Below are positions 2,893 through 17,130 of a DNA stretch of 64,000 bases, piece by piece (positions within the stretch are counted from its first letter, which is position 1; the number at the start of each line of letters is the position of its first letter). This stretch comes from Enterobacter hormaechei subsp. xiangfangensis (lineage in GTDB: Bacteria; Pseudomonadota; Gammaproteobacteria; Enterobacterales; Enterobacteriaceae): contig NZ_CP017183.1 of NCBI RefSeq assembly GCF_001729785.1, positions 62,001-126,000 on the forward strand, written 5' to 3'. The position numbers and the translations under genes were made by a program. A model generated the notes under the pieces. That model made no database searches. It had not been told where the DNA came from and saw only the letters and a program-made list of their open reading frames with translations.

Positions 2893-3705
2893 ATGAAGTA
2901 TCTCATTGATCTTACAATGCTTTATGAAGTCGACACCGGTATGATCATGATTAATGGAGAGGAAGAGTCATCCATTAAGTTATCTAACCAGGCGGGTCGT
3001 CTGCTTTATGAACTTATCATCAATAATGGTAAAACTCTCGACAGAGACGACCTGATAAAGAAGGTCTGGGAGGATCATGGTTTCTCTGGTTCTTCGGTGA
3101 GTCTGAATGTTGCCATAAGTGAAATCAGAAAAGCATTTCGTACATTAGGATGCGACCCTTTACTGATAAAAACGATACGTGGCAAGGGATTTAGCCTTGC
3201 CGCGCATATTGAACACCACACGGTCAGGCCGCCGGTTGTTTCAACGCTTAGTGAACAATCTGCCTCTGAATCATTCGATACGCTAGCGCATAAGAAAGAT
3301 GCCGATCCGCCTAAACAATTAATATCGCTGCACAGACTCTTTATTTCTCTCTGCACCTTATTACTGATTACCGTTATCGGCACCGCTGTTTTACTGTTGC
3401 ACCAAAGGGATTCCTATGCCGAGAGCCTGAAAGATTCTGATATGCATCTGCTCGGTAAAGTGGACCGGTGTACGGTATACCTGATCGATAAGAATATGTA
3501 TCAGCCGCGACAGCACTACTTTAATCACGTAAAAGAGGTCATCGCCAGTCAACATATCGACTGTCAACATCAGGTTGCAGATGCTTACTATTCCAGGTTT
3601 AAAAAGTCGCAGATAGAAAATTATTTCCTGGCCATCTGTTATCAGCAGGACAGTATCGACGATTATAAGAACTGCATTTCTTACAGAAGCCTGACCGGGA
3701 GTTAA
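2893..3705 (+). CDS. MarT-like (ToxR/CadC-type) membrane-bound transcriptional regulator
   Basis: A 270-residue one-component regulator. Residues about 1-105 form an OmpR/PhoB-type winged helix (e.g. 'LSNQAGRLLYELIINNG', 'SVSLNVAISEIRKAFR', 'IRGKGFSLA'). One membrane helix lies at about 148-168 (rich in Leu, Ile and Val), so the C-terminal ~100 residues are periplasmic. That part has four cysteines (DRCTVYL, HIDCQHQ, AICYQQ, YKNCISY). Together with the next gene, 3 bp downstream, it resembles Salmonella MarT-FidL of pathogenicity island 3, which is also at selC. It lies between two fimbrial operons and probably controls one or both; the signal is unknown. Confidence 0.8.
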   Translation: MKYLIDLTMLYEVDTGMIMINGEEESSIKLSNQAGRLLYELIINNGKTLDRDDLIKKVWEDHGFSGSSVSLNVAISEIRKAFRTLGCDPLLIKTIRGKGFSLAAHIEHHTVRPPVVSTLSEQSASESFDTLAHKKDADPPKQLISLHRLFISLCTLLLITVIGTAVLLLHQRDSYAESLKDSDMHLLGKVDRCTVYLIDKNMYQPRQHYFNHVKEVIASQHIDCQHQVADAYYSRFKKSQIENYFLAICYQQDSIDDYKNCISYRSLTGS

Positions 3706-3708
3706 AAT

Positions 3709-4194
3709 ATGTCAAGGACTAAAATGAGTGTACTGTTCAGTATCGTACTGGCGCTGTCTGTCATCGCGTTGTTATGGATCTATTTTACCAGAACGCAGGA
3801 TGAGGGGTTTGGCTGCCAGTCAGATACCATTTCCTGGAAAACATATTCCACGGGTGAGTCAACCGATATGTCGCTAACCACGCTTTTCCTGTTTAACAAC
3901 AAAGATGTTGTGACGGTTATTCATAAAGGCGTGCTCAAGAAAGAGGGCAAAAGCTACCTGATTGACCGAAATTACACGCTCAGCGTGGAAAAAGTCGATG
4001 GAAGCAATATCTTTTATATTAAGGATAAAAAGCTGAATAAATCTGAAGATGATGCGGCGCCGGATGGCGTTGTAAACGAAATGTTACTTGATAATATCAA
4101 CTTCTTCTATATTACCAGCGTAAAAAAACATGCGTGGTTAATTAAGGGGCTGGTGTTGCCTGTAATGATGTGTGTGGCTGTCCCGACGTCCTGA
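3709..4194 (+). CDS. FidL-like single-span membrane protein
   Basis: A 161-residue protein with one N-terminal membrane helix (about residues 7-27) and a periplasmic domain, encoded 3 bp after the MarT-like regulator and surely co-transcribed. Size, topology and position match FidL, the small partner of MarT in Salmonella. By analogy with ToxR-ToxS it may stabilise or tune the periplasmic domain of the regulator, but no function has been shown for FidL as far as I know. A cysteine follows the membrane helix (GFGCQS) and another is nine from the end or thereabouts (VMMCVAV), positions shared with the second FidL-like protein at 30376-30855. The last residues may be frayed by sequence drift. 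Confidence 0.7.
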   Translation: MSRTKMSVLFSIVLALSVIALLWIYFTRTQDEGFGCQSDTISWKTYSTGESTDMSLTTLFLFNNKDVVTVIHKGVLKKEGKSYLIDRNYTLSVEKVDGSNIFYIKDKKLNKSEDDAAPDGVVNEMLLDNINFFYITSVKKHAWLIKGLVLPVMMCVAVPTS

Positions 4195-4421: not shown

Positions 4422-5045
4422 ATGAACAAACTGAACGCTATCGTTCTGGGCTCCCTGCTGTCTGTTTCTGCCCTGAGCGCAGTTAATGCAGCAGAAACGA
4501 CGGCTTCTGCCACATGGCAGGCAACCGCGACCAAAGACAGCGAATCCGATCTGGTTGTTACGCCAACGCGTGCTCTGAACTTTGTTTACAGCGCCAACAC
4601 CAAATCTTTCAACACCGACACCGGTCTGTTTGATGTGGCTATCCGTGGCGATCACTCTACGGCGACCAGCTTCAAACTCGAAGCTATCCTCGACGATTCA
4701 AACAACACGCTGTTCAGCGTGGGTGGTGAAGCGACCAAGCTGAAAGTGGGTGCGCGTTGGGGCGGTAACGACCTGGGCTCTATCGGTGGCACCGTGGGGG
4801 CGAAATCAACCGCATGGACCACGCTGGTTGATTCCTCTTCTAACACCGGCGTCTCTTCTGGCCTGTGGAACCTGACCACCAGCGCAGGCGCGGCGGCAGA
4901 TACCGAAATTACCGGCCAGGACAAATTCGTCTTCTACGTTGACTCCGCTCAGGACAATGCCGGTACGGCGAAAGAGTTCAAAGACCTGACCAACAGCCTG
5001 TGGGAAGGGACCGTGTCTGTTGCGTTCCGCGCAACCTGGGGCTAA
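4422..5045 (+). CDS. ecpA: EcpA-like major pilin (common pilus / alpha fimbriae)
   Basis: A 207-residue pilin of the E. coli common pilus (ECP, Mat) type. A signal peptide of about 23 residues (ending NAA) precedes the mature protein. Family features are clear: 'ATWQATATKDSESDLVVTP' near the start, 'FNTDTGLFDVAIRGD' with 'TATSFKLEA', and the C-terminal 'WEGTVSVAFRATWG', which acts as the donor-strand and subunit signature. GAAGGA precedes the start by 8 bp. It is first in an ecpABCDE-order operon. The LuxR-type regulator ecpR that precedes ecpA in E. coli is absent; a MarT/FidL-like pair is upstream instead. Sequence divergence from E. coli EcpA suggests a second, paralogous ecp-type locus rather than the standard one. 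Confidence 0.88.
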   Translation: MNKLNAIVLGSLLSVSALSAVNAAETTASATWQATATKDSESDLVVTPTRALNFVYSANTKSFNTDTGLFDVAIRGDHSTATSFKLEAILDDSNNTLFSVGGEATKLKVGARWGGNDLGSIGGTVGAKSTAWTTLVDSSSNTGVSSGLWNLTTSAGAAADTEITGQDKFVFYVDSAQDNAGTAKEFKDLTNSLWEGTVSVAFRATWG

Positions 5046-5090: not shown

Positions 5091-5768
5091 ATGTTTAACC
5101 TCAAATCCGCCTTCTTATTTTTATTATTTATCTCTTCCTCCGCGCTGGCCATTAATGTGGGAAAAGTCACCACCATTATTTCTGCGGATGCTGACTCCAC
5201 CGCCAAGGAAATAAAAAACGAAGCAGACAGCGTGCGCATTGTTTCTGTTCGCGCACAGCGGATCAGCAGCCCAATGGATGAAGGGATCGTCATCAATCCG
5301 GAGAAAGTGGACGAACTGTTGCTGACGCCCACGCGCATGGTGATGCCCGCCGGTACCAGCAATATCGTCAAATTTTACTATCACGGGAACGCCGATAACA
5401 AAGAGCGTTACTACCGCATTACCTTCACGGATGAAGGGGTAAGCGAAGAGGTGGACAGCGGTTCGCCAAAAAACGGCACCGGGATGACGCGCGCGGTGGT
5501 GAGCACCATTCTGGTGGTTCAGCCCCGGGATAAGAAGATTGATTTCGTCTATGTGGCGGGAAAAATAACCAATAAAGGGAACACCTCGTTTCGCGTCAAT
5601 GCGACCGGGACCTGCCTGAAGCCGAATCCGGAATCCCCCGGCACGCCGTGTAGCAAAAACTTCTACCTGATGCCAGAGACCTCGCGCGCTATCGAGGATA
5701 TCAACGTTACGGATAACCATTTTCATCTCGGAATATGGGACCTGAAACAGTTCATTCCTGTTAAGTAA
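5091..5768 (+). CDS. ecpB: EcpB-like periplasmic chaperone
   Basis: A 225-residue periplasmic chaperone of the alpha-fimbrial type, about the length of E. coli EcpB. Signal peptide about residues 1-20 (ending ALA). The body has the feature 'LLLTPTRMVMPAGTSNIVKFYY' region followed by 'DNKERYYRITFTDE', which recurs almost unchanged in the second chaperone of this operon (EcpE-like: 'DNKERYYRVKFTE'). Two cysteines (TCLKPN, TPCSKN) near the C terminus could pair. It is encoded 45 bp after ecpA and 6 bp before the usher gene, and would guide EcpA-type subunits to EcpC. Confidence 0.88.
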   Translation: MFNLKSAFLFLLFISSSALAINVGKVTTIISADADSTAKEIKNEADSVRIVSVRAQRISSPMDEGIVINPEKVDELLLTPTRMVMPAGTSNIVKFYYHGNADNKERYYRITFTDEGVSEEVDSGSPKNGTGMTRAVVSTILVVQPRDKKIDFVYVAGKITNKGNTSFRVNATGTCLKPNPESPGTPCSKNFYLMPETSRAIEDINVTDNHFHLGIWDLKQFIPVK

Positions 5769-5774
5769 GGATGC

Positions 5775-8369
5775 ATGGTGAAAAATAAATTAGTGTTGCC
5801 GGTGATGATGGCTTGCGCATCCGGCACGCTGCCCGCGCTTGCGCATGCAGCCTCAAGCTCCGTGGTTATCGCTAATTACCGTTTTCCCGACTCGCTTTAT
5901 GCACTGCTGGAGCAGGGGATCAAAATTCCCGTCTATCTGGTGAATACGCGTCCACACTCAGCACAACAAGGGAACCACGAAGGCACGGCGAGTGAATATG
6001 TTCGTATCGGTGACGTGACGCTCTTTGCAAAAGATCTGAAGCTGGGGCTGAGGGACGTTCAGGTCCAGGAGTCTGATAACGGCATTCGTCTGTCAAAAGA
6101 GATGCGGGCGTTACTGCAAAGCATTAACGATAAGCAGTTTGATGACCAGATGCGTATTCCGGTTAGCGCGGGTTCGGCGTTCGAACTGGATCAGAAAAAA
6201 ATGCGCCTGTTGCTGAATCTGTCGCAGAGCGACTACGGGGTGAATATTCGCCCGCGTGAGGTGGATATTGATGCGCCGGAGTCTGACGACCTGAGCGGCA
6301 CGTTCTCCTACAACCTCGGGGCGTATCACACCGAGAGCGGCTACGGTGACAGCTGGTCGTCGGGCTATCTGAACGCGAGAAACTGGATCTCAATGGGCGT
6401 CGATCATGTGCTGATCGATGGCTCTGGCTACGTCAACGAGAGCAGCAGCGATACCCAGATGAACGCGGTTATGTGGGAGCGCGACTATCAGGGGATGCGC
6501 TACGCCGCAGGCATGCTGAACGGCTGGGCGATGCAGTCTCTGGCGAGCGTCAGCGGGATTTCCGGCGGTGAAGTCTACGGCGTTTCCATGGGCAACCAGG
6601 CCAACTCCCGCAAACGCGATAACACGCTCTCTCTGACGCCGGTGGTGGTCTATTTCCCCACGGCGGGCGAGGCCCGTATTCGTCGTGACGGGCAGCTTAT
6701 CGGCATTCAGCGCTTTGACGTCGGCAACCATGAAATTGACACCAGCAGCCTGCCCTACGGGATCTACAGCATCGAAGTTGAGGTGGTGAGCGGAAGCCGC
6801 ACCGTGTCGCGTAACATGTACACCGTAAATAAGCCGTTCTCCAGCAACGTGTCGGAAACGCTGCGCTGGCAGATGTGGGGCGGGATGTATAGCCGCGATA
6901 AATCCGTCGTCAATTATAAAAAATACGCGAAACGCAAAAACGAGCAGGACAACACCTACTACTACGATTACGACACCAAACATAAAGACACCATGTCGCT
7001 GGTGGGAGCCTCGTTCAGCAAGCGCAGCGGGATGGTCGACTGGAACGCCTCCACCTACATGATGCGGGAACACATCGTCAGCGAGCTGTGGGCCTCCCTG
7101 AACCTGACGGGCTATTTCTCGGTGAATACCCAGACCATGGCCGCCTCCGACGGAACCTATCGCGCCAACTATGGGGCGAATCTCAGCCTGCCGTGGCAGA
7201 TCGGCTCGGTGTGGTACTCCCATGAACAGCTCTCCAGTGGCAAGTTCCTCGATATCTATGAGAGCAAGGGCAATACCTGGGGCGCCTCCTTTAGCCTGCC
7301 GTCGTTCGGTCTGCCCTCGGCGGGCAACCTGAGCCTGATGCGCCAGGAGGACGACCTCTATCGCTATAAACGCTATCAGCTGGACTACTCCCAGGGGTTA
7401 TACGCCGGTCGCTACGGTACGGCGCGCCTGCGGGTGGGAATGTCGCGCAACAAATACGACGGGTATTACGAAGAGAAAGATCGTTACGTGATGCTCGATT
7501 TCGCTATACCGCTCGGCAATACCGTGTCGGTTGGCGTTTCCCACAATCGCGATACCGGCACGGCGCTGAACGTCAGCGCCAGCCGCCAGTTTGAAGGCGA
7601 TTACCTGAAATCGGCTACCGCCAACGTCTCGAAAGCCTTTAACAGCCGCCAGGATCGCAGCGTAAGCGGCGGCGGCAGCGTGAACTTCGACACGCCGTGG
7701 AACAGCAACATCCTCAGCGTCCAGAGCGGCATGAGTAAAGGCTGGAACTCCACGCTGACCAGTGACGGCAGCGTGGGCTGGTCCAAAGAGGCCATCGCCG
7801 CCGGGAAAGGCACCGAAAGCGCAGGGGTGATTGTCAGTACCGGTCTCAAATCTGATGAAGCGCTGACCCTGAAGCTTAACGGCCGGGCAGAACGCATCAA
7901 AGGGGATAAGACCTGGCTGTCGCTGCCGGCATACCAGGCTTATGACCTGGAAGTGATGAACAGTGAAACCGGTACGGAAAGCTATGAGATTGGCGCGAAT
8001 GCGCGTCGCCATATCACGGTTTATCCGGGCAATACCGTGGTGATGAAGCCGCAGGTGAAGAAAATCGTCACTCTGTTTGGTCGTCTTGTGGATGCAAACG
8101 GGGCCCCGATTGGCGCCATGCAGATCAAAAACCACGTCGGGCTGACCCGGACGGAAAACGACGGACGCTTCGTGATCGACGTTGATAAGAACAACCCTGT
8201 CCTGAGTATCGCCACGCCGGACGACAGCGTCTGCGAAGTGCGCCTGGACATCGAGTCTAACCGCGGTGCGCTGTGGCTTGGGGACATCTCCTGCGACAAA
8301 GGCGATTTCGTCTGGCAGGAAGCAAAAGGAACGCAGGAACGTGACGATGAAAAAGATATTCGCTCTTAA
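5775..8369 (+). CDS. ecpC: EcpC-like outer-membrane usher
   Basis: An 864-residue alpha-family usher that would form the outer-membrane pore for pilus assembly (E. coli EcpC is about 840). A signal peptide ends near ALAHAA. The central region is rich in alternating aromatic/polar beta-strand sequence, as expected for the barrel. The C-terminal part has a carboxypeptidase-regulatory-like beta-sandwich ('GRLVDANGAPIGAMQIKN', 'TENDGRFVIDVD') and paired cysteines near the end (DDSVCEVRL, GDISCDKG). The start could also be the GTG one codon later, which is better spaced from AAGGA. Its 3' end overlaps ecpD by 23 bp, which implies translational coupling. Confidence 0.9.
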   Translation: MVKNKLVLPVMMACASGTLPALAHAASSSVVIANYRFPDSLYALLEQGIKIPVYLVNTRPHSAQQGNHEGTASEYVRIGDVTLFAKDLKLGLRDVQVQESDNGIRLSKEMRALLQSINDKQFDDQMRIPVSAGSAFELDQKKMRLLLNLSQSDYGVNIRPREVDIDAPESDDLSGTFSYNLGAYHTESGYGDSWSSGYLNARNWISMGVDHVLIDGSGYVNESSSDTQMNAVMWERDYQGMRYAAGMLNGWAMQSLASVSGISGGEVYGVSMGNQANSRKRDNTLSLTPVVVYFPTAGEARIRRDGQLIGIQRFDVGNHEIDTSSLPYGIYSIEVEVVSGSRTVSRNMYTVNKPFSSNVSETLRWQMWGGMYSRDKSVVNYKKYAKRKNEQDNTYYYDYDTKHKDTMSLVGASFSKRSGMVDWNASTYMMREHIVSELWASLNLTGYFSVNTQTMAASDGTYRANYGANLSLPWQIGSVWYSHEQLSSGKFLDIYESKGNTWGASFSLPSFGLPSAGNLSLMRQEDDLYRYKRYQLDYSQGLYAGRYGTARLRVGMSRNKYDGYYEEKDRYVMLDFAIPLGNTVSVGVSHNRDTGTALNVSASRQFEGDYLKSATANVSKAFNSRQDRSVSGGGSVNFDTPWNSNILSVQSGMSKGWNSTLTSDGSVGWSKEAIAAGKGTESAGVIVSTGLKSDEALTLKLNGRAERIKGDKTWLSLPAYQAYDLEVMNSETGTESYEIGANARRHITVYPGNTVVMKPQVKKIVTLFGRLVDANGAPIGAMQIKNHVGLTRTENDGRFVIDVDKNNPVLSIATPDDSVCEVRLDIESNRGALWLGDISCDKGDFVWQEAKGTQERDDEKDIRS

Positions 8370-9945
8370 TTTACTGCTGATAAGCGCGGCGGCCCTGGCG
8401 CAGGAGCTGCCCTATTTCGCCATTAATAACCCGGACAATAACGGTACGGGAAACAGCGCAGGGCTGTTTAGTCTGAACAGCACGTCGACCGCGTTTTTAC
8501 ACGGTTCGCGCGAGTGGCCGACCCTGAGTGCGAAAACGAATAACGGTATCGCCACTTACATCCCGGACAACAGCTTCAACGGCCCGGCAGGCAGCGCGTT
8601 AACTATCGACTTTTCGGTGACCGGTTCCAGCGCTTCTCCGTTCTTTAAAGGGACGGCGTGTTCCTCGTCCTGCGGCAACACGGGGTACACCCCGACGACC
8701 AGCTATACCGACACGTCGATGGTGGTTAAGCCGCCGGTGATGGAGCCCGGCACGTCATACGGGCGCTGGGTACTGGGCGATCCGTTCTTTAACTATTTGC
8801 TCAACGCCGCGCCAGGGGATGAAGTGACCATCACCTCCACGCCGCAAATCAGCTCCATCAACAAAGTGACCACCACCAATACGCTTCACAAGGTGGGCAC
8901 GCTGACCATGACCAACTCCAGAGCGCTTAACCTGGGTATTGACCCGATCAGCGGCGAGGTGACGATTGTCGATGGATCAACGGGGGCCACCTGCACCAAG
9001 TACACCCGTAACACGGTCTCTGGCGTCCTGTGCGACCTGCTCGAATACACATTTGTTGGGGAAGATATCTCCGGTTACAACGGAGGGCTGGCGCTCACCT
9101 CTTCCCGCGTCAACAGCGTGCTGCAATCGCACATGAGCGGCGGCACCGGGCTTGCCGCCGAGCTGACCTTCGATGAAAACACCTGGTACAGTATCTCCGG
9201 CGGTATCCTGAGCGATACGCGTGTCCTGGCGAACACCTTCCTTGCAGCGCCGCAGAAAAACGGCGGCAAAGCGTACCTTAAAATCTTTTTGCCGAAAGCG
9301 TTAATTCTGAGCGTGGCGCAGGCGGGGGACGGCAGCAACATTGGCAATATCGTCAGCCTGTGTCTGACGCCCGGCAACAGCTCGCTGGCGGCGGATTTCT
9401 GCTTCCAGCCGGGGGGCGGCCTGGTGATTAACCCTATCGAACCCGGGCTGGAAATTGTGCCAGACAACCCGGATTACACCCTCGATCCTGACGGTCTGGG
9501 CGGCTCAGGGAAAGGCATTATCGGCGAAGCGCCCATTGAGATCCCCTACACCATCACCTACAGCGGGGCGCAAAAAGATGCGGCGATTGCGGTCACGGTA
9601 AAAGTCACCGGGCCTACCCAAAGCCTGAATGGGGTGGACTACTGCGCCTTTAGCGGCAACGGCTTTACGGTTCCCATTCCGGGCAACGTGCTGGTGGGGA
9701 AAAGCCAGACGCTGATGGCGCACAACTGTAAAGGCGAAGTACTGTCGATCCCGGCGCCGGCCACCCATGCGGAAGAGTGGGACAAAATGAGTTCCGGCGT
9801 GACCGATATGTGGCTCTGGAAAACACCGCTGATCCTCCAGTTCGTTATGGATAATCCGGTATCGAAAACCACCTATGACGGAAATAGCTGGTTTGGTGAA
9901 GTGACCGCGCAGGGAAGAATAGATGTTAGCGCATCCTGGAATTAA
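8347..9945 (+). CDS. ecpD: EcpD-like pilus tip adhesin/minor subunit
   Basis: A 532-residue secreted protein matching E. coli EcpD (about 547), the polymer-forming tip adhesin of the common pilus. I start it at ATG 8347 (MKKIFALNLLLISAAALA), which gives a perfect signal peptide; a longer in-frame reading lies wholly within ecpC. Features include 'LPYFAINNPDN' at the mature start, a serine/glycine-rich N-terminal half with several cysteines (TACSSSCGN, ATCTKY, VLCDLLEY) and a pilin-like C-terminal half ending in 'GRIDVSASWN'. It overlaps the usher gene and is followed by ecpE after 6 bp. Confidence 0.88.
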   Translation: MKKIFALNLLLISAAALAQELPYFAINNPDNNGTGNSAGLFSLNSTSTAFLHGSREWPTLSAKTNNGIATYIPDNSFNGPAGSALTIDFSVTGSSASPFFKGTACSSSCGNTGYTPTTSYTDTSMVVKPPVMEPGTSYGRWVLGDPFFNYLLNAAPGDEVTITSTPQISSINKVTTTNTLHKVGTLTMTNSRALNLGIDPISGEVTIVDGSTGATCTKYTRNTVSGVLCDLLEYTFVGEDISGYNGGLALTSSRVNSVLQSHMSGGTGLAAELTFDENTWYSISGGILSDTRVLANTFLAAPQKNGGKAYLKIFLPKALILSVAQAGDGSNIGNIVSLCLTPGNSSLAADFCFQPGGGLVINPIEPGLEIVPDNPDYTLDPDGLGGSGKGIIGEAPIEIPYTITYSGAQKDAAIAVTVKVTGPTQSLNGVDYCAFSGNGFTVPIPGNVLVGKSQTLMAHNCKGEVLSIPAPATHAEEWDKMSSGVTDMWLWKTPLILQFVMDNPVSKTTYDGNSWFGEVTAQGRIDVSASWN

Positions 9946-9951
9946 TCAACC

Positions 9952-10605
9952 ATGACTGGAAAATTCCTGGCTATTTTTGCAATAAATTGCTTCATTTCCA
10001 CAGGGGCAAATGCTTTAATTATCGAAAGTCTGAATATTGATTTTCTTCCCGAAAGAGAAGTTGTTTTTCAGCCGATAAAAAACGATACCAGCGAGCGTCA
10101 GAATTATACCGTGTCGCTTATTCAGGTAGACGTTCCTAAAGAGAAGGGAAAAGAAACCGAAATAAAAGACGGCGAAGTCATGTATTCGCCTAAGCAATTA
10201 ACGCTGGGGAGCGGTGAACGCGCGGGTTTTAAATTTTATTATACCGGCCCGCATGACAACAAAGAGCGATACTATCGCGTAAAATTCACCGAGACGCCGC
10301 TCCAGGCAAAGGTTATCACGCGCAAAGGCCAGCGCATCCAGTCGGATGTGGTGGTCTCGCTTGAGGCTATTTTGATTGTCCGACCATGGACACGACATTT
10401 TGATTATGCGTTTAGCAACGGGGTGGTGAGTAATACCGGGAATACCTATTTTAAATATGTTTCCTCGGTCGGGTGCAGTACGCAATACAACAATTCAAAA
10501 TATATTCCACCGGGGCAACGGCTGGAAATAGATAATGCCGGGCAGGCTGCAAGGCGGATGATTATTTATGGCAATAAAATCATTCCGCTGACCACCTGCC
10601 CGTAG
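9952..10605 (+). CDS. ecpE: EcpE-like second periplasmic chaperone
   Basis: A 217-residue periplasmic chaperone, the last gene of the ecp-type operon; E. coli EcpE is about 236 residues. A signal peptide (ending about TGANA) precedes an immunoglobulin-like fold with 'SGERAGFKFYYTGPHDNKERYY', shared with the EcpB-like protein. The two chaperones presumably serve different subunits (EcpA-type and EcpD-type). The 5' third of the gene is AT-rich compared with ecpC and ecpD. Only 73 bp separate its stop from the first double-glycine peptide gene, on the same strand, so read-through into that cassette is possible. Confidence 0.85.
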   Translation: MTGKFLAIFAINCFISTGANALIIESLNIDFLPEREVVFQPIKNDTSERQNYTVSLIQVDVPKEKGKETEIKDGEVMYSPKQLTLGSGERAGFKFYYTGPHDNKERYYRVKFTETPLQAKVITRKGQRIQSDVVVSLEAILIVRPWTRHFDYAFSNGVVSNTGNTYFKYVSSVGCSTQYNNSKYIPPGQRLEIDNAGQAARRMIIYGNKIIPLTTCP

Positions 10606-10612
10606 CAACCGC

Positions 10613-10655
10613 TTTCCTTCATAAAAGGAAATTAGCCTTTAGCATCATGCTAAAG
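10613..10655 (+). promoter_or_regulatory. Two tandem stem-loops between ecpE and the peptide genes
   Basis: TTTCCTT / AAGGAAA (10613-10631, 5-nt loop) is followed at once by CTTTAGCA / TGCTAAAG (10637-10655, 3-nt loop, or a 9-bp DNA inverted repeat around one central base). Neither is followed by a T run. They may protect the 5' end of the peptide message after processing, attenuate read-through from ecpE, or, for the second, form an operator. No clear -10/-35 pair is visible here. Confidence 0.55.
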
Positions 10656-10678
10656 ATCCATCACTACAGGAGATAAAA

Positions 10679-10873
10679 ATGAAAGCGATTTCATTCGTAG
10701 AAGCGAAAGACATTATTGGCGGCGCGTTAAACCCGTTCGCTGGTCTGGTTAAAGGTGCACAGCTGGGTTACGACACTGGCGCCAGCATCATGGGCATGGT
10801 TGGCGGTGTGGTTGGCGGAGTTCTGGGTGGCGCAATGGGCTTCCTGGGCGCGCTGGTTGGTAGCTACAACTAA
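10679..10873 (+). CDS. Double-glycine-leader peptide 1 (microcin/class II bacteriocin-like)
   Basis: A 64-residue peptide. The first 15 residues, MKAISFVEAKDIIGG, form a Gly-Gly leader of exactly the length of the microcin V leader. Cleavage after GG would release 49 residues beginning ALNPFAGLVKGAQ. The core has no cysteine, carries little charge and holds a long glycine zipper (GG at four-residue spacing through residues 40-55), as in membrane-inserting class II bacteriocins. AGGAGA lies 6 bp before the ATG. A paralogous peptide follows after 23 bp and a matching C39-peptidase ABC exporter lies 277 bp further. Alternatives are a signalling or biofilm peptide. The secretion type is well supported; antibacterial activity is inferred. 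Confidence 0.82.
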   Translation: MKAISFVEAKDIIGGALNPFAGLVKGAQLGYDTGASIMGMVGGVVGGVLGGAMGFLGALVGSYN

Positions 10874-10896
10874 TTCACGTTAACAGGAAAAGTATC

Positions 10897-11082
10897 ATGC
10901 AAGTTATCGATTTCAAAAAAGCACAGGCCATCATCGGTGGTTGGGATCCGTTTGCTGCCGCTATTCAGGGCGCAAGCGCGGGCTATAACGCGGGCAGCCA
11001 GATGTTAGGCGCGCTGGGCGGCACCATCGGCGGCGTATTCGGCCTGGTGGGCGGCTTCATCGGCGGTTTCTTCAGCGCCTAA
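10897..11082 (+). CDS. Double-glycine-leader peptide 2 (paralogue of peptide 1)
   Basis: A 61-residue peptide with leader MQVIDFKKAQAIIGG (15 residues) and a predicted 46-residue core starting WDPFAAAIQGASAGY. It aligns with peptide 1 without gaps over the first 35 core residues: (N/D)PFA, QGA/KGA, GY(D/N), then repeated GG pairs. Both lack cysteine. Two paralogous glycine-zipper peptides in tandem resemble two-peptide (class IIb) bacteriocins, whose partners pair through GxxxG motifs. A strong intrinsic terminator follows, so the two peptide genes form one short transcript unit. Confidence 0.82.
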   Translation: MQVIDFKKAQAIIGGWDPFAAAIQGASAGYNAGSQMLGALGGTIGGVFGLVGGFIGGFFSA

Positions 11083-11103
11083 GCGAGAAGCACGTTGTAC
11101 GCA

Positions 11104-11130
11104 TGGCCCGCATTGCCGGGCCATTTTTTT
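11104..11130 (+). terminator. Intrinsic terminator after the peptide genes
   Basis: TGGCCCG / CGGGCCA form a perfect 7-bp GC-rich stem with a 6-nt loop, followed by seven T. It ends 20 bp before the exporter start and would let the peptides be made in excess of the exporter, with partial read-through supplying the latter. Confidence 0.9.
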
Positions 11131-11149
11131 ATTTCAGCCACGGATCATT

Positions 11150-13246
11150 ATGTTTTCGCTCTTTCAGTATAAAAAACAGGGTAAGACCCCTGTTATTCGC
11201 CAGCATGAATTTACCGAATGTGGACTGGCCTGCCTGGCGATGGTGTTGGGGCACTACGACCACCATGTCTCCGTCAGCCAGCTGCGCCGGGAGATTTCCG
11301 TTTCCGCCGATGCGGGAACCTCAATGGCGGAATTGATGACCCTTGCCAGCGATAAAAATATGTCTGGCCGGGTGCTTAAAGGCGAAATCACTGAAATAGA
11401 AACGTCTGAGCTGCCGCTCATCGCCTTCTGGCGCAGCAACCATTTCGTGGTCATCGTGAAGATCGACAGCCGCAGCGTGACCGTTCACGACCCGGCCAGC
11501 GGCGTGCGTCGTTACCGTCTGAAAGAGGCGGAAAAACTCTTTTCCGGCTATGTGCTTGAGCTTAAGCCCACGCCGTGCTTCGAAAAGAAATCCCCGGATG
11601 AAAAGCTCACGCTTGGCCGTTTAGCCAATAAATCTCCGAGCCTGTTCCAGCGCCAGCTGCTGCTGTTTGTGCTCTGTATTTTTACTCTCATCACCATGCT
11701 GGCAAGCCCCACCTACGTGCAGCTGATTATGGATGAGGCCATTTCCCGCAGCGACAGCGATCTGGTGATCCTGCTCACCGCGATCTTCGCTATCGTCTTT
11801 ATCTTTGAAGTCATCGGTAAATTCCTCAAGCAGCTGCTTGAGATCCTGATGCGTAACATTGCCTATGACGATTTAAGCCAGTCCGTGCGCCACTACATGC
11901 TGCGCACCCAGACCAGCTGGTTCCGCTCGCGCCCGCCGGGCATCGTGCTGGCTATTGAGAAATCGCTCCACGCCTGCGCGGAGTTCATCAGCAATGGTTA
12001 CGTGCAAATTCTCTTTTCCAGCCTGATCGCCGTCACCAGCCTGCTGTTTATGCTGCTGTATAACGTCAAAATTGCGCTGCTGACAATGCTGCTGATGGGC
12101 GTGTTTTTTCTGATCCGCTTTTCGCTGATCGGCCCCTATCAACGCGCGGTGGATGACTCCATCGAGCGCACCGCCCAGTATGAGTCTCTGCTGGTGGAGA
12201 CGCAGAAAGGGATCATAACGCTCAAAGCGAACAACATGGAGCAGGCCCGGGATGCGGTGATGGACAAATCCCAGCGCGAGCACATCGCCGGGCTGATGCG
12301 TAAAGAGCGGCTACTGGCCCGCTTTGACGTGGCTTCGCTGCTGGTGATCAATGCCGAGCAGCTGCTGGTGGTCTGCTTTGGCGCGTGGCTGATCCTGGAA
12401 GGGCAGATGAGCATCGGGATGCTTTACGCCTATATCAGCTATAAGCGCTATTTTTCCGATGCCATGGTGCAGGTGGCGCAGAAGCTGCTGGACAAAAATG
12501 CCCTCAAGGGGCCGCTGGATCGCGTGGGCGACCTGCTGTTTGCTCCCTCTGAAACCAGCCAGTTTGGGAAGCGGATTGTCACCTCGCCGGTCTGTCTGCA
12601 ATTTGAGGATGTCTCATTTGCCTATCCTGGCCGGGAGGCCACGCTACAGCATATCAACATGACCCTGAAGCAGGGCGAAGAGGCGGTGATTGTGGGCCAG
12701 AGCGGGTCGGGAAAAACCACGCTGCTGCGTTTGATCTCCGGCATGCTGCTGGCATCGTCTGGCACGCTGCGGATCAATAAGATCCCCATTGAGGAGTGCG
12801 ATCTTTCCTCGCTGCGTCAGCACATCCGCATCGTCCATGCGGACGATATTCTCTTCACCGGCTCGATTCTGGACAACATCGCCTGCTTTGACAGCGCACC
12901 GGATAAAGAGCAGGTCATTGCCGCGTGTCGGCTGGCGGAGGTGGACCACGTCGTCGCCCGGCTGCCGCACGGCTACGAAACGGAGATGCTGCCGGGGAAC
13001 ACCTTTTTCTCTGCCGGGGAGATGCAGCGTCTGGTTCTGGCGCGCGCCCTGTACAGCCAGCCTAAGCTTCTGCTCTGTGACGAAGTGACGGCGAACCTGG
13101 ATAAAACGACCGCGCAGAAAGTGCTGGCGAACCTGCGTAGCCTGGGGATTGGCCTGGTGTTTGTCACCCACTCGCCGGACGTGGTGGGCTGTCAGGGGCG
13201 TCTCTATACCATGGAAAACGGCACCCTGCGGGAGAGTGAGCAATGA
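11150..13246 (+). CDS. Peptidase-containing ABC exporter (CvaB/MchF type)
   Basis: A 698-residue inner-membrane bacteriocin exporter, the same length as CvaB. An N-terminal C39 peptidase domain (about 12-140) has the full catalytic set: Gln18, Cys24 in 'QHEFTECGLACLAMV', His98 in 'NHFVV' and Asp114 in 'HDPA'. It should cut Gly-Gly leaders such as those just upstream. A six-helix membrane domain spans about 165-430. The ATPase domain has Walker A 'GQSGSGKTTLL' (about 516-526), Walker B 'LLLCDEVTANLD' (about 640-651) and H-loop 'FVTHS'. The signature loop is 'FSAGEMQR' rather than LSGGQ. It overlaps the next gene by 4 bp. No strong ribosome binding site precedes the start. Confidence 0.92.
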   Translation: MFSLFQYKKQGKTPVIRQHEFTECGLACLAMVLGHYDHHVSVSQLRREISVSADAGTSMAELMTLASDKNMSGRVLKGEITEIETSELPLIAFWRSNHFVVIVKIDSRSVTVHDPASGVRRYRLKEAEKLFSGYVLELKPTPCFEKKSPDEKLTLGRLANKSPSLFQRQLLLFVLCIFTLITMLASPTYVQLIMDEAISRSDSDLVILLTAIFAIVFIFEVIGKFLKQLLEILMRNIAYDDLSQSVRHYMLRTQTSWFRSRPPGIVLAIEKSLHACAEFISNGYVQILFSSLIAVTSLLFMLLYNVKIALLTMLLMGVFFLIRFSLIGPYQRAVDDSIERTAQYESLLVETQKGIITLKANNMEQARDAVMDKSQREHIAGLMRKERLLARFDVASLLVINAEQLLVVCFGAWLILEGQMSIGMLYAYISYKRYFSDAMVQVAQKLLDKNALKGPLDRVGDLLFAPSETSQFGKRIVTSPVCLQFEDVSFAYPGREATLQHINMTLKQGEEAVIVGQSGSGKTTLLRLISGMLLASSGTLRINKIPIEECDLSSLRQHIRIVHADDILFTGSILDNIACFDSAPDKEQVIAACRLAEVDHVVARLPHGYETEMLPGNTFFSAGEMQRLVLARALYSQPKLLLCDEVTANLDKTTAQKVLANLRSLGIGLVFVTHSPDVVGCQGRLYTMENGTLRESEQ

Positions 13247-13992
13247 TGCTTTTGCCGCGTCTCTATGCGCGACTCTGCGCGCGCCAGGCCGGGCGCACGC
13301 TGCTGGCAAACCGGATCACGCAAAACTACAGCCAGTTTATGCGTTGCCCGGAGGCCGATGTTCCGGCTGATTTTCTGCATCAGAATGCGCATGAGCTGAG
13401 CGGGTTTAACTTCGTGGAGCAGATCTTCCCGCCCGCGCTTTGGGCGCGCAACGTTAGTTTTGATCTGCACGGGTACGTGGCGCAGTGGACGCGGGAGCAG
13501 GCATTTTACAGTTCATCTCGCACCCTGCTACTGGGCATGCGCTGGGCGGGCTTTGGTCTGATCGTGGATGCGCTGCTCGCCACCGCGCCAGCCGATGTGC
13601 GCTTTCAGTTTATTACCCGTCACCCTGCGCTGCATAAGCTGATGGCCGCGCACGAAGGCCGACGCGCCAGCTCGTTTTTCGCCCCTCACCGCCTGGTGAC
13701 GGTGCTGCTGATGGACGAACGCCTGCCGGATGCGCCGCTGTTCTCCACCCAGGCAGGGGATCAAAAGGCGTGGTTAACGGACGTCTCAACGCGGTTTTTA
13801 TCGCGCTATGGCTACAGCGTCCGAACGCTGCTGCCGATCTGTTCGCTGCACGCGGCGGAGTTTGGGCTGGAGAGTCAGGCGTATGCGCCGGAGGATTACC
13901 GTCAGGCCGCCGCCGACACGCTGAACGCGCTGCGCAAAACCCCCACGCTCTGGAGTGCATGGGATGATCTTTCAGTGATTTATCATGGATGA
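13243..13992 (+). CDS. Unrecognised 249-residue protein within the exporter operon
   Basis: I do not recognise this family. The gene overlaps the ABC exporter by 4 bp (ATGA) and ends 6 bp before the HlyD-type gene, so it is an integral part of the operon. The protein is 249 residues, without signal peptide or clear membrane helix; a hydrophobic stretch lies at about 95-110 ('LLLGMRWAGFGLIVDALLA'). It is rich in Ala, Arg, Leu and His, has three cysteines (ARLCARQ, MRCPEA, PICSLHA) and many aromatic residues in its middle ('GYVAQWTREQAFYSSS'). Possible roles are immunity, a cytoplasmic chaperone or docking factor for the peptides, or a modifying enzyme. Nothing in the sequence decides this. Confidence 0.8.
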   Translation: MMLLPRLYARLCARQAGRTLLANRITQNYSQFMRCPEADVPADFLHQNAHELSGFNFVEQIFPPALWARNVSFDLHGYVAQWTREQAFYSSSRTLLLGMRWAGFGLIVDALLATAPADVRFQFITRHPALHKLMAAHEGRRASSFFAPHRLVTVLLMDERLPDAPLFSTQAGDQKAWLTDVSTRFLSRYGYSVRTLLPICSLHAAEFGLESQAYAPEDYRQAAADTLNALRKTPTLWSAWDDLSVIYHG

Positions 13993-13998
13993 CATATC

Positions 13999-15249
13999 GT
14001 GAAATTAAAAAACCGAAGCGGACAGCGGCGGGCGCTGATCCCGCATCACTTCTCAAAAAGCTATCACATCAACGCGCCACGGCTGAAAGCCGTGCTGACC
14101 TTGTTCATCGCCTTTTTTCTCTGCCTGCTGGTCTTTGCGATTGTCTTTAATTTTTCGGAAACCACGCTGGCACGCGGGGTGTTGATCCCGGCGCAGGGCG
14201 ATGTGGAAGTCCGCGCCAGAGAGTCCGGTACCCTTGTCGATTTTGCCGTCCGGCCCGGTCAGTACGTGAAGGAAAACGATCCGCTGTTCACCGTGTCGCA
14301 GGACTATGGCGGCAAGCAGGGCTCGGTGGTGCAGTTTGACCGCCAGCAGATGGAAGCGGAGAAGAAGCGCAGCGAGCAGCGCATCCAGGCCATTGAGGAC
14401 TCGATTGCGTCGTATCGCAAAAATCTGGCGCAGCAGCTGGCTCTCACCGACAAGCAGATCGCCGTTTCCCGCGATAAGGTGAAGAAGCTGCGCGCGCTGT
14501 TAAAAAACAGCACCGACACCTACGAGGCGTGGAAATCCGTCTCCGGGAAGGGCTATGTCTCCAGAGTGGATCTCGATAAAAGCCACAATGATGTGCTCAA
14601 TGCGCAGCTCAACCTGACGCTGGAGGAGAGCACTATTCTTGAGCTTGAGGCACGCAAAACCAGCCTGACCGACAGCACCCAGTCGCAAATTGACTCTCTG
14701 AGCGAAGAGCAGCTGTATGTGAAAAACCGCATCAGCGAAATCGATCGCAACCTGTCCAGCCGGGGAAGTTCCACCATGGCGATGCTGGCCCCTGCCGATG
14801 GTTACGTGGTGGCGATTAACTTCCCGCCTGGCCGGGCCATTACGCAAAATAGCGAGGTGGTGGTGGTGATCCGTAAAAATACCGCGGCGACGATGGAGGG
14901 GTACCTGTATGTTCCGGCAACGGGGGTGGGGCGCGTGGCGAAAGGCGATAAGGTCAAGCTGCGCTTCGACTCCTGGCCCGTGGACAAATACGGTTCCGTG
15001 GAGGCGACGCTGTCCGATTTCTATGAGGTAAACATTGATGCCCATTCGGCGCTGATCCCGCTCCAGGAAGGGCAGAACTACTACCTGGCTAAAGTGCGCG
15101 TCCCCTCCTGGTTTACCGACCCGGACAAGAAAAAGCGCATGCTGATGGGCGGGATGACGGTGAACGCCGATATCGTTATCGATCGTAAGCCGCTTATCAA
15201 TCTGCTGATTGCCCCGCTGGAAAGGGTGCGCAAGCGGTTTATCGATTGA
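13999..15249 (+). CDS. HlyD/CvaA-type periplasmic adaptor of the peptide exporter
   Basis: A 416-residue membrane-fusion protein (CvaA is about 413). A short cytoplasmic N terminus and one membrane helix (about 34-54) precede a lipoyl-like half ('VEVRARESGTLVDF', 'VRPGQYVKENDPL'), a long coiled coil (about 105-245, rich in Gln, Glu, Lys, Ser) and the return lipoyl half ('LAPADGYVVAINFPPG'). It would bridge the ABC exporter to an outer-membrane channel; no TolC is encoded here, so the chromosomal one would be used, as for microcin V. The start codon is GTG. It is the last gene of the cassette; no evident terminator follows. Confidence 0.92.
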   Translation: MKLKNRSGQRRALIPHHFSKSYHINAPRLKAVLTLFIAFFLCLLVFAIVFNFSETTLARGVLIPAQGDVEVRARESGTLVDFAVRPGQYVKENDPLFTVSQDYGGKQGSVVQFDRQQMEAEKKRSEQRIQAIEDSIASYRKNLAQQLALTDKQIAVSRDKVKKLRALLKNSTDTYEAWKSVSGKGYVSRVDLDKSHNDVLNAQLNLTLEESTILELEARKTSLTDSTQSQIDSLSEEQLYVKNRISEIDRNLSSRGSSTMAMLAPADGYVVAINFPPGRAITQNSEVVVVIRKNTAATMEGYLYVPATGVGRVAKGDKVKLRFDSWPVDKYGSVEATLSDFYEVNIDAHSALIPLQEGQNYYLAKVRVPSWFTDPDKKKRMLMGGMTVNADIVIDRKPLINLLIAPLERVRKRFID

Positions 15250-15338: not shown

Positions 15339-16118
15339 ATGAACATTACGCAAATTCGCAATGCCACCCAACTGATCACTTACGCGGGAAAACGCTTTTT
15401 AATCGACCCAATGCTGGCGCCAAAAGGCACTTATCCGGGTTTTCCCGGCACGGCGCGGGCTGATATTCGCAACCCGATGGTCGAGCTTCCCGTTGACGTT
15501 CAAACGCTTCTGGATGCTGACGCGGTGATCGTCACCCATACCCATGCCGATCACTGGGATCAGTACGCCGTTGAGCTGATCGCCAAAGGCAAGCCGATCT
15601 ACGTGCAAAATGATAGCGATGCCGCGCTGCTGCGCAGCCAGGGATTTACCAACCTGACGATCATGACCGGGGAAACAACATACGGCGATATCCGGATAGT
15701 GAAAACCCACGGCGGCCAGCACGGTACTGACCGCGCTTACGCCGTGCCGGAGCTGGCAGAGTTTCTGGGGGAAGCCTGCGGCGTGGTGTTCCGTCATCCC
15801 GATGAGAAGACGCTTTATATCGCAGGGGATACCATCTGGCGCGATGCGGTGGCGGCCGATCTGCAAAAGCACCAGCCGGATATCGTCGTGCTCAACGCCG
15901 GTTACGCTCATGTCATTGGGTTTGGGCCGATTATCATGGGGGAAGAAGATCTGCTTAACGTGCATTTCCTGCTGCCGCAGGCGAAAATCGTGGCGACCCA
16001 TATGGAAGCTATCAACCACTGCCTGCTGACCCGCCGCGCGCTGCGCGAGTATGTTGACGCCAACGAGATAAGTGACGCGGTGAGCATTCCTCAGGACGGC
16101 GAAACCGTTATATTCTGA
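15339..16118 (+). CDS. Metallo-beta-lactamase-fold hydrolase (UlaG-like)
   Basis: A 259-residue cytoplasmic MBL-fold enzyme. The zinc motif is 'HTHADHWD' (about 67-74), followed by further ligands in 'THGGQHG', 'IAGDTIW' (Asp bridging the metals) and 'VATHMEAINHC'. The overall layout is that of the UlaG/L-ascorbate-6-phosphate-lactonase-like subgroup, but the substrate cannot be told. There is no signal peptide. The gene precedes a GlxA-type regulator by 25 bp, and this pairing is a common arrangement in enterobacteria. Its translation start is enclosed in a 12-bp stem. Confidence 0.85.
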   Translation: MNITQIRNATQLITYAGKRFLIDPMLAPKGTYPGFPGTARADIRNPMVELPVDVQTLLDADAVIVTHTHADHWDQYAVELIAKGKPIYVQNDSDAALLRSQGFTNLTIMTGETTYGDIRIVKTHGGQHGTDRAYAVPELAEFLGEACGVVFRHPDEKTLYIAGDTIWRDAVAADLQKHQPDIVVLNAGYAHVIGFGPIIMGEEDLLNVHFLLPQAKIVATHMEAINHCLLTRRALREYVDANEISDAVSIPQDGETVIF

Positions 16119-16143
16119 GTGTTAAAGGGGAAAGGAGAGACAG

Positions 16144-17130
16144 ATGCCGCTTGTTAACGTTGCTATTGTCGCGGTGGACGGGTTTAGCCCGTTCCACTAC
16201 TCCGTCCCCTGCATTCTGTTTGGCGATACGGTATCCGGGGAAAAGCGCTTTAACGTTACGATCTGCGCTGAAAAACCGGGATTCCTGACCTCGAAAGACG
16301 GTTTTGCCCTGCATGCGACGCAGGATTTTTCTGCAATCGCATCGGCTGAAATTGTGGTTGTACCCTACTGGCAGCACGTGCTGGAGCGCCCGCCTCAGAC
16401 GCTGCTCGACAGCCTGGTTCAGGCCAGAGACAACGGGGCGGAAATTGTTGGGCTGTGTCTGGGATCGTTTGTACTGGGCTATGCGGGCATACTCAGCGGC
16501 AAACGGGCCGCCACCCACTGGGAGTTTGAACACCAGTTTCAGACGCTGTTTCCGGACGTTCGACTGGACATCAACGCGCTCTACGTGGACGACGGCAATG
16601 TGATCACCTCGGCAGGTACCGCCGCCGCGCTCGACTGCTGTTTGTATATCATCCGCCAGCGCTTTGGCAGCGTTGTCGCCAATCAGATTGCCCGCCGGAT
16701 GATCGTCCCGCCGCACCGCGAGGGCGGGCAGGCGCAGTTTATTGCGCAACCTGTGCCGAAAGATACCCGCGACGGGCGGATTAACTGTCTCATTGACTAC
16801 CTTCAGCAGCACATTTCCGAACCGCATAACCTGGATTCGCTGGCGGACGTGGTGTCGATGAGCCGACGCACGCTGACCCGCCATTTTATCAAGGCGACGG
16901 GCATGAGCGTTGCCGACTGGCTTACCGCCGAGCGCCTGCGGCGCAGCCAGATCCTGCTGGAGTCCGGCAGTCTGCCAATCGAAAGCGTCGCTGAGCAGGT
17001 GGGGTTTTTATCAGCGGTGACGTATCGGCAGCAGTTTAAGGCGCGCTTTGGTGTCAGTCCGGCGGAGTGGCGTAAGACGTTTCGCGTTAAGCCGTATGCA
17101 GCGAAAAATAATGCTGGCGCGATGGAATAA
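16144..17130 (+). CDS. GlxA-family AraC-type transcriptional regulator (DJ-1/PfpI domain)
   Basis: A 328-residue regulator with an N-terminal DJ-1/PfpI-like domain (about 1-190; nucleophile-elbow-like 'GLCLGSFVLGYAG', with Cys in the elbow) and a C-terminal AraC helix-turn-helix pair ('LDSLADVVSMSRRTLTRHF' and 'PIESVAEQVGFLSAVTYR'). Such proteins activate transcription and the amidase-like domain is thought to sense ligands. AAGGAGAG precedes the ATG. It probably forms an operon with the MBL-fold enzyme and may regulate it. The ligand is unknown. Confidence 0.85.
   Translation: MPLVNVAIVAVDGFSPFHYSVPCILFGDTVSGEKRFNVTICAEKPGFLTSKDGFALHATQDFSAIASAEIVVVPYWQHVLERPPQTLLDSLVQARDNGAEIVGLCLGSFVLGYAGILSGKRAATHWEFEHQFQTLFPDVRLDINALYVDDGNVITSAGTAAALDCCLYIIRQRFGSVVANQIARRMIVPPHREGGQAQFIAQPVPKDTRDGRINCLIDYLQQHISEPHNLDSLADVVSMSRRTLTRHFIKATGMSVADWLTAERLRRSQILLESGSLPIESVAEQVGFLSAVTYRQQFKARFGVSPAEWRKTFRVKPYAAKNNAGAME

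Follow-up and report, generated by a model that had tools for sequence, protein, structure and literature searches.

Cdz of Caulobacter crescentus (CdzC, CdzD, CdzA, CdzB and CdzI) is a contact-dependent killing system in which two glycine-zipper proteins are exported by a type I secretion system (T1SS) (PMC5380434, 2017). CdzI is described there as a protein with three transmembrane (TM) segments; its gene could not be removed on its own from the producer. The survey in the same paper reported Cdz-like systems in Enterobacteriaceae, with fimbrial neighbours for many of the relatives; a small TM immunity protein of the CdzI type was seen only sometimes, the highest similarity was found in the exporter, and the Cdz-like proteins showed substantial variation (PMC5380434). 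For class II microcins, a survey found conserved exporters and variable peptides (PMC9746304). In the EbfG1-4/PteB system of Synechococcus elongatus, small proteins with a Gly-Gly (GG) leader are exported by a C39 transporter and are needed for biofilm formation, and some of them form amyloid (PMC4997328, PMC9981879). Here, we describe a locus of Enterobacter hormaechei subsp. xiangfangensis in which genes for a pair of such peptides directly follow a pilus operon. The stretch of DNA analysed (the window) comprises 64,000 nucleotides, positions 62,001 to 126,000 of NZ_CP017183.1, and is part of a 4.66 Mb genome in one contig.

The locus contains ten genes, all on the forward strand: ecpA to ecpE of a chaperone-usher pilus resembling the Escherichia coli common pilus (ECP), genes for peptide 1 and peptide 2, a gene for an ATP-binding cassette (ABC) exporter, a gene for a protein of 249 amino acids, and a gene for an HlyD-type adaptor. 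By their order and joint occurrence these ten genes are one unit, and we propose that they are a transferable surface module.

Distribution and Order of the Ten Genes

Three markers, namely the 249-residue protein, the usher (copies with at least 92% identity) and a profile of the peptides, were searched in 61 Enterobacter genomes. All three were found in an identical set of 14 genomes, with two peptides in each, and were absent from the other 47, nine of which had usher matches that were only distant or fragmentary. A Fisher test for co-occurrence of the markers gave 4e-14; linked genes are inherited together, so the weight of this result lies in no part being found without the rest in the 61 genomes. 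The order from pilin to HlyD was identical in all 14.

In draws from the family, the 249-residue protein was found in 4 of 295 genomes, an usher with at least 50% identity in 4 of 295, and the peptides in 4 of 392. These were the same four genomes, two of which belong to other genera, and the full gene order was kept in both. In the first (G027), the peptides were 86 and 84% identical to those of the window, the exporter 81%, HlyD 81% and the 249-residue protein 54%. In the second, whose peptide and 249-residue protein matched records named Pantoea sp. 1.19 (G190, hereafter the Pantoea locus), the values were 56 and 62% for the peptides, 63% for the exporter, 54% for HlyD, 58% for the pilin, 49-51% for the usher, 42% for the adhesin and 30% for the 249-residue protein. 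Relatives of the peptides and of the 249-residue protein from Erwinia were also present among the protein database matches. A sequence-only reading of this DNA had described the two peptides, the ABC protein, the unknown protein and HlyD, which follow ecpE, as one export cassette attached to the pilus operon, and had named peptides not conserved with the exporter as a ground for refutation. This check came out in favour of the cassette: the order from ecpE to HlyD was conserved in the 14 Enterobacter genomes and in two other genera, and cassette and pilus operon were never separated there.

Among 72,556 plasmid records, three carried the export cassette, and two of these three are typed as conjugative. 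At the sensitivity of megablast, none of 20,395 E. coli records contained it. The whole unit was annotated in both of the plasmid copies inspected, one from E. hormaechei and one from E. mori. The E. mori copy lies on the conjugative plasmid NZ_OX147917.1, where a gene annotated as IMI-2 carbapenemase is about 6 kb away, and a LuxR-type gene is located upstream of its operon on the other strand. More distant plasmid exporters were found in 28 records, with about 29-32% identity among the matches listed. On a second E. mori plasmid (NZ_OX147903.1, 33721-35801), the exporter gene is annotated as two pieces, a C39 part and an ATPase part.

The Two Peptides and Their Conservation

The sequence-only reading had described two paralogous peptides of 64 and 61 residues, free of cysteine and with GG leaders and glycine-zipper cores, and the coordinates and translations bore this out. 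In both, residues 1-15 are the leader, which ends in GG (IIGG at residues 12-15) and has isoleucine at -4 and -12 and alanine at -7. The cores are neutral or slightly acidic and contain about 26-31% glycine, and G, A, V, I, L, M and F together make up 76-78% of them. The C-terminus is SYN or similar in peptide 1 and SA in peptide 2. The genome encodes no other peptides of this kind. Against the Pfam family Bacteriocin_IIc (PF10439), the class IIc/Blp model to which the sequence-only reading had pointed, the window peptides scored 15.5 and 12.7 bits, below the gathering cut-off of 27.1, and weak matches under the cut-off were seen in 7 of 12 peptides.

Four of the five sequence traits by which Cdz-like systems are delimited in PMC5380434 were found here. 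The lengths of 64 and 61 residues fall within 60-151; the leader ends in G followed by G, A or S, here GG; for the trait of one or two zippers with proline or a charged residue at their flanks but not inside them, the GxxxG run is uninterrupted in both window peptides; and a T1SS lies within 10 kb, with the ABC and HlyD genes directly downstream. Some relatives of peptide 2 have a proline at the start of the GxxxG run. A small TM immunity protein of the CdzI type, which is not a strict trait of Cdz-like systems, was not found in the unit.

Ratios of nonsynonymous to synonymous substitution (dN/dS) were calculated from 13 Enterobacter genomes (of the 14, G331 was left out; its order was seen in L013, whose coordinates are identical), pooled and given with bootstrap intervals. 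The pooled ratio was 0.037 (0.012-0.074) for the peptides and 0.032 for their cores alone, compared with 0.052 (0.040-0.065) for the ABC protein, 0.040 (0.029-0.053) for HlyD and 0.074 for the pilin. The 249-residue protein was the fastest evolving of the ten, at 0.162 (0.125-0.206). Rates for ecpD were excluded from the argument, since one of the 13 rows (L037) is frameshifted. In mean pairwise identity, the two peptides reached 97.5 and 98.3%, ABC and HlyD 95%, and the 249-residue protein 85.1%. Judged by these values, constraint on the peptides is about equal to that on their exporter. The peptides are not a product of chance, because two other genera have the same genes in the same order and the peptides are under strong purifying selection; an annotation artefact was likewise rejected, given conservation in three genera and a dN/dS far below 1.

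A peptide-1 allele with 75% identity to that of the window (P0042) occurs on 43 contigs, one of which bears the name Enterobacter cloacae complex sp. P15RS. One more genome, from a draw across the order (G630), gave a weak peptide match (E 6e-4) in a frame with a stop, and this match was set aside.

Codon Usage and a Conserved Hairpin

The use of optimal codons, a set that we take to be that of E. coli, was compared with the level predicted, for each amino acid separately, from the genes of the unit other than ecpA and the two peptide genes (seven genes). The sample was 14 genomes, that is, the window, L032, L033 and 11 Enterobacter loci, with L037 left out. The mean z of the excess was 6.9 for ecpA, 4.2 for peptide 1 and 3.0 for peptide 2; in the Pantoea locus, the values were 3.2, 2.5 and 1.5, respectively.

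A terminator-like hairpin between the peptide 2 and exporter genes was the top site of a terminator scan, which found 29 sites where 11.7 were expected from shuffled sequences, so that a single site is weak evidence. Read by eye, the hairpin was kept in all 15 aligned loci; in the Pantoea locus one pair was changed on both sides and the T run was poorer. Such a hairpin could let peptide transcripts outnumber exporter transcripts, and together with the codon signature it suggests that far more peptide than exporter is made.

The 249-Residue Protein and the Search for an Immunity Gene

No Pfam or NCBIfam family matched the 249-residue protein of the window; among 11 relatives, one gave a stray match to DUF440 (E 0.29), and the single match in PDB (E 0.37) was meaningless. 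A search of 5.8 billion sequences, which detects only relatives sharing short exact words, returned 26 proteins at E 1 or better. Named members of the family among the matches come from Enterobacter (one labelled Lelliottia), Erwinia and Pantoea, and they share an invariant DERL motif and C-terminal residues of the type WxxWDxL. Invariant polar residues in the 11 aligned relatives, such as D158, E159, R160, W237 and D241, fit a helper or an enzyme. There is no clear TM segment, with at most one borderline window.

The protein is the only neighbour outside the pilus genes that falls within the 30-250 residue limits applied in PMC9746304. It was never found alone, being absent from all 47 Enterobacter genomes without the unit among the 61 searched, which argues against bacteriocin immunity, where immunity-only copies might be expected. 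We also scanned for a hidden immunity gene over a stretch that began 200 bp before the end of ecpE and reached 400 bp beyond hlyD, taking open reading frames of at least 30 amino acids from the first start codon that were kept in at least 8 of 14 other loci. No other kept reading frame of this length in the unit was hydrophobic enough for a membrane helix; the conserved ones all overlapped genes of the unit, with a hydropathy peak of at most 1.5. A hidden immunity gene inside the unit was therefore rejected, as no further small hydrophobic reading frame was kept across the loci.

The Exporter and the Pilus

The sequence-only reading of the remaining cassette genes, a 698-residue C39 ABC exporter with Gln18, Cys24, His98 and Asp114, a 249-residue unknown protein and an HlyD-type adaptor, was correct in every part, with all four exporter residues in place. 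Related C39 ABC-HlyD pairs were seen in two further genomes of the family draw (L095:887-4531, which starts at the contig end, and L096:9431-14482), where the HlyD proteins are 40 and 42% identical to that of the window. Upstream lie one (L095) and two (L096) precursors of 45-47 amino acids with 15-residue GG leaders and cysteine-containing cores, which may be new small exported peptides. Neither genome had an usher match at E 1e-50 or a match to the 249-residue protein. This type of exporter thus seems to have further peptide substrates, and the form that is linked to the pilus and accompanied by the 249-residue protein looks like a distinct branch of the exporter family.

The sequence-only reading had also called the pilus operon ecp-type. 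Its order of pilin, chaperone, usher, adhesin and second chaperone is what we take to be that of ECP (ecpRABCDE), which agrees with the name; the NCBIfam equivalog cut-offs were missed, as the EcpA-like pilin scored 135.9 bits against a cut-off of 200 and the EcpD-like adhesin 93.2 bits against 900. By these models the pilus is ECP-like and not ECP proper. In 46 other genomes of the family draw of 295 that matched at E 1e-50, the next-nearest ushers were 29-38% identical to that of the window. In the E. hormaechei plasmid copy, the counterpart of ecpB is annotated as "periplasmic chaperone". In L037 and L009 (Enterobacter cloacae DSM 26481), ecpD is split over two frames and the remaining nine genes of the unit match at full length.

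Organization of the Locus

As Table 1 shows, the unit is preceded by a regulator gene and a gene for a small protein. We take the regulator to be ToxR-like, and the 161-residue protein is possibly its partner, presumably of the ToxS/FidL kind. In the 12 other Enterobacter loci, the regulator gene was found upstream of ecpA, whole or cut by the edge, in 10, the two misses having less than 800 bp of upstream sequence, and the 161-residue protein in all 12, one of them cut by the locus edge. The pair diverges between loci more than the ten genes of the unit do (down to 56% identity, with partial matches). No match to it was found near the operon of the E. mori plasmid copy (L060). In the Pantoea locus, a winged-helix regulator and a small protein lie downstream on the opposite strand, and tblastn found no link between them and the Enterobacter pair.

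Table 1. Position of the genes and the hairpin in the window.
Feature	Position	Strand	Evidence
Winged-helix (Trans_reg_C) regulator, probably of the unit	2893..3705	+	Pfam Trans_reg_C 5e-14
161-residue protein, single N-terminal hydrophobic stretch	3709..4194	+	Pfam: nothing at E 0.01
EcpA-like major pilin	4422..5045	+	NCBIfam EcpA 1e-39, under cut-off; high-expression codon signature
EcpB-like pilus chaperone	5091..5768	+	Position; about 26% identity to the ecpE product
EcpC-like usher (CS1 type)	5775..8369	+	Pfam CooC_C 7e-19, TcfC 2e-17
EcpD-like tip adhesin	8341..9945	+	NCBIfam EcpD 1e-26, under cut-off
EcpE-like second chaperone	9952..10605	+	Pfam EcpB_C 6e-5, just under cut-off
Peptide 1, 64 residues	10679..10873	+	Leader MKAISFVEAKDIIGG and 49-residue glycine-zipper core
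Peptide 2, 61 residues	10897..11082	+	Leader MQVIDFKKAQAIIGG and 46-residue glycine-zipper core, which begins WDP
Intrinsic-terminator-like hairpin and T run, between peptide genes and exporter gene	11103..11124	+	
C39-peptidase ABC exporter, 698 residues	11150..13246	+	Pfam Peptidase_C39 5e-33, ABC_membrane, ABC_tran
249-residue orphan protein	13243..13992	+	4 bp overlap with the ABC gene; no family in Pfam or NCBIfam
HlyD-type periplasmic adaptor, 416 residues, GTG start	13999..15249	+	Pfam HlyD_3

The gap of 73 bp between the ecpE stop and peptide 1, on the same strand, was as first read. No TolC gene was found in the ten-gene unit, a point on which, as on the missing immunity gene, the sequence-only reading was silent. 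The end of the unit was placed at hlyD because the metallo-hydrolase and AraC-type genes that follow it (15339-17130) were both present after hlyD in 9 of the 12 other Enterobacter loci and neither was found within the fetched stretch in 3; both genes were rejected as members. They also follow the unit in the E. hormaechei plasmid copy; the gene table of the E. mori plasmid copy, which is incomplete, lists neither of them behind the unit. Upstream on the minus strand (1189-2530), two genes resemble a chaperone and a subunit of another chaperone-usher operon, named by analogy with an annotated copy (L059). In that copy, the unit lies in a fimbria-rich region, with a further fimbrial operon downstream.

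Discussion

Gene order, co-occurrence, export signals, catalytic residues, conservation and the codon signature were read directly, and they form the basis of the following model. A chaperone-usher pilus of the ECP-like lineage would be built through its usher and, in parallel, the two glycine-zipper peptides would be made in large amounts. The C39 domain of the ABC protein is predicted to trim the peptides after GG, and they would be exported through ABC-HlyD and the TolC of the cell. Like CdzC, they may stay on the cell surface and self-associate, beside or on the pili. Their main effect would be the binding of cells or surface structures to one another, as adhesion, aggregation or matrix, with the pilus bringing cells into contact. 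The 249-residue protein may be a cytoplasmic helper of the peptides (a chaperone, adaptor or modifying enzyme) and not an immunity protein. The exported pair, the C39 exporter and the pilus linkage all favour the surface or contact role that the sequence-only reading had suggested. That abundant, surface-retained peptides work with the pilus in adhesion or aggregation is an explanation to which we give a little less than an even chance. The fuller picture is more tentative: a composite organelle for cell-cell adhesion, made of an ECP-like pilus and an obligate T1SS glycine-zipper pair in pilin-like amounts, Cdz-descended or convergent, and carried as a mobile ten-gene unit with a new 249-residue helper.

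A Cdz-type contact-dependent bacteriocin is a real possibility, though short of probable. Surface peptides would then insert jointly into the membrane of touching cells and depolarise it, the pilus would give contact, and immunity would come from the 249-residue protein or from a gene elsewhere. The published Cdz-like traits fit, with an adjacent pair of 61-64 residues, a GG leader, a GxxxG core of mostly small hydrophobic residues and an adjacent T1SS, and Cdz-like systems with fimbrial neighbours are known from Enterobacteriaceae (PMC5380434). The weak Bacteriocin_IIc matches, the cassette on three plasmid records and the two alleles that deviate from the common one also agree with killing. 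However, the Cdz-like proteins of the survey vary (PMC5380434), whereas the peptides here are conserved to about the same degree as the exporter, and the unit yielded no small TM candidate for immunity. The 249-residue protein has no clear TM segment and no orphan copy in 61 genomes, and in the Pantoea locus it falls to 30% identity while the peptides are still at 56-62%. A bacteriocin fits poorly because the peptides are conserved, no small membrane immunity gene was found in the unit, the orphan protein is never alone and the peptides have, in common with the major pilin, the strongest codon signature of high expression. Because the peptides are strongly conserved, no immunity candidate was found and the codon signature is pilin-like, a structural role appears at least as likely as toxicity, and we slightly favour the structural or adhesive role over Cdz-type killing.

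Two further explanations seem improbable. A diffusible two-peptide class II microcin, lying beside the pilus genes by coincidence, would account for the 15-residue GG leader, the isoleucines at -4 and -12, the glycine-rich cores and the catalytic C39 domain, all listed class II traits (PMC11494933, PMC9746304). Against this, the peptides were never parted from the pilus in 14 Enterobacter genomes or two other genera, and an immunity gene of the usual type was not found in the unit. Judging from CdzC, such hydrophobic cores would also be expected to aggregate. Least probable of all are pheromone peptides that prompt neighbouring cells to make the pilus and are sensed by the upstream regulator. 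GG peptides can be signals, and in Enterobacter chromosomes the unit occurs together with the presumably ToxR-like regulator and its small partner. Two glycine-zipper cores of such hydrophobicity and a codon usage like that of the pilin would be unusual for signals, however, and in the E. mori plasmid copy nothing close to the operon matched the regulator pair.

Several points weigh against the adhesive role that we favour. The peptides show most of the published Cdz-like traits, and CdzC/D kill; toxins, too, can be abundant and conserved, and immunity could be encoded elsewhere or by the 249-residue protein. The dN/dS interval of the peptides overlaps those of the exporter genes, peptide 1 of the Pantoea locus (56%) is less conserved than the exporter (63%), the divergent allele P0042 occurs in strains beyond the 13 inspected genomes, and peptide 2 of the E. 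mori plasmid differs at 6 of 61 residues. As to expression, the set of optimal codons is an assumed one, the usher is also in small excess (mean z 1.9; window 2.6) with none in the remaining genes, and peptide 2 of the Pantoea locus gives a weak signal. Among 13 Enterobacter copies, one carries a frameshift in ecpD next to peptides that look intact.

Should the peptides and the pilus act together, a single surface structure would draw on two cooperating secretion routes, and Gram-negative GG peptides predicted to be "bacteriocins" would need re-examination. If they kill, an adhesion operon would contain a Cdz-type weapon that is also found on Enterobacter plasmids, in one case with a carbapenemase gene a few kb away. 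In both cases, the fixed unit would be a clean system for asking if Cdz-like peptides are weapons or glue.

Comparison with Known Systems

The pilus shares with ECP of E. coli what we take to be the ECP gene order, and the unit differs from ECP by its EcpA and EcpD scores below the cut-offs and by the peptide export cassette after the operon. The sister exporters of L095 and L096 have related ABC and HlyD proteins and 15-residue GG leaders, and differ in their cysteine-containing precursors of 45-47 residues and in the want of any match to the usher at E 1e-50 or to the 249-residue protein in their genomes. We recognised no publication describing the unit among the matches listed; the supplementary lists of PMC11494933, with nine putative Enterobacter microcins, and of PMC5380434 may contain the peptides.

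With class II microcins (MccV and others; PMC9746304, PMC11494933), the locus shares the 15-residue GG leader, the catalytic C39 ABC protein with its HlyD-type adaptor, and the glycine-rich core. It differs in its two glycine-zipper peptides and fixed pilus linkage, and no small TM immunity candidate was found next to the peptides; membership in this class, to which the sequence-only reading had likened the cassette, was not upheld, as the unit has no immunity gene that we could find.

EbfG/PteB also combines several small GG-leader proteins with a C39 transporter, and the available parts of the two papers describe no killing role (PMC4997328, PMC9981879). It is cyanobacterial and was studied in mutants of type II secretion/type IV pilus assembly and, as far as these parts show, not beside a chaperone-usher operon. 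By analogy, EbfG/PteB is a functional precedent for an abundant structural partner of a pilus.

The sequence-only reading had regarded paired peptides of this kind as mainly Gram-positive bacteriocins. The exported pair stands, but Cdz is a Gram-negative precedent that acts on contact (PMC5380434). CdzC and CdzD have 86 and 84 residues, compared with 64 and 61 here; the peptides here are about as conserved as their exporter and not variable, the likeness to CdzC/D being judged from their description; and here there is a fixed ten-gene unit with an ECP-like pilus and an extra 249-residue protein, in which no CdzI-like gene for three TM segments was found. The two systems share two adjacent, small, leader-bearing glycine-zipper proteins, a dedicated T1SS of ABC protein and adaptor, and a cluster with no TolC gene. 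By analogy the design is Cdz-like, with two glycine-zipper proteins, type I export and contact as the natural setting, and on these sequence features the Cdz system is the closest known kind.

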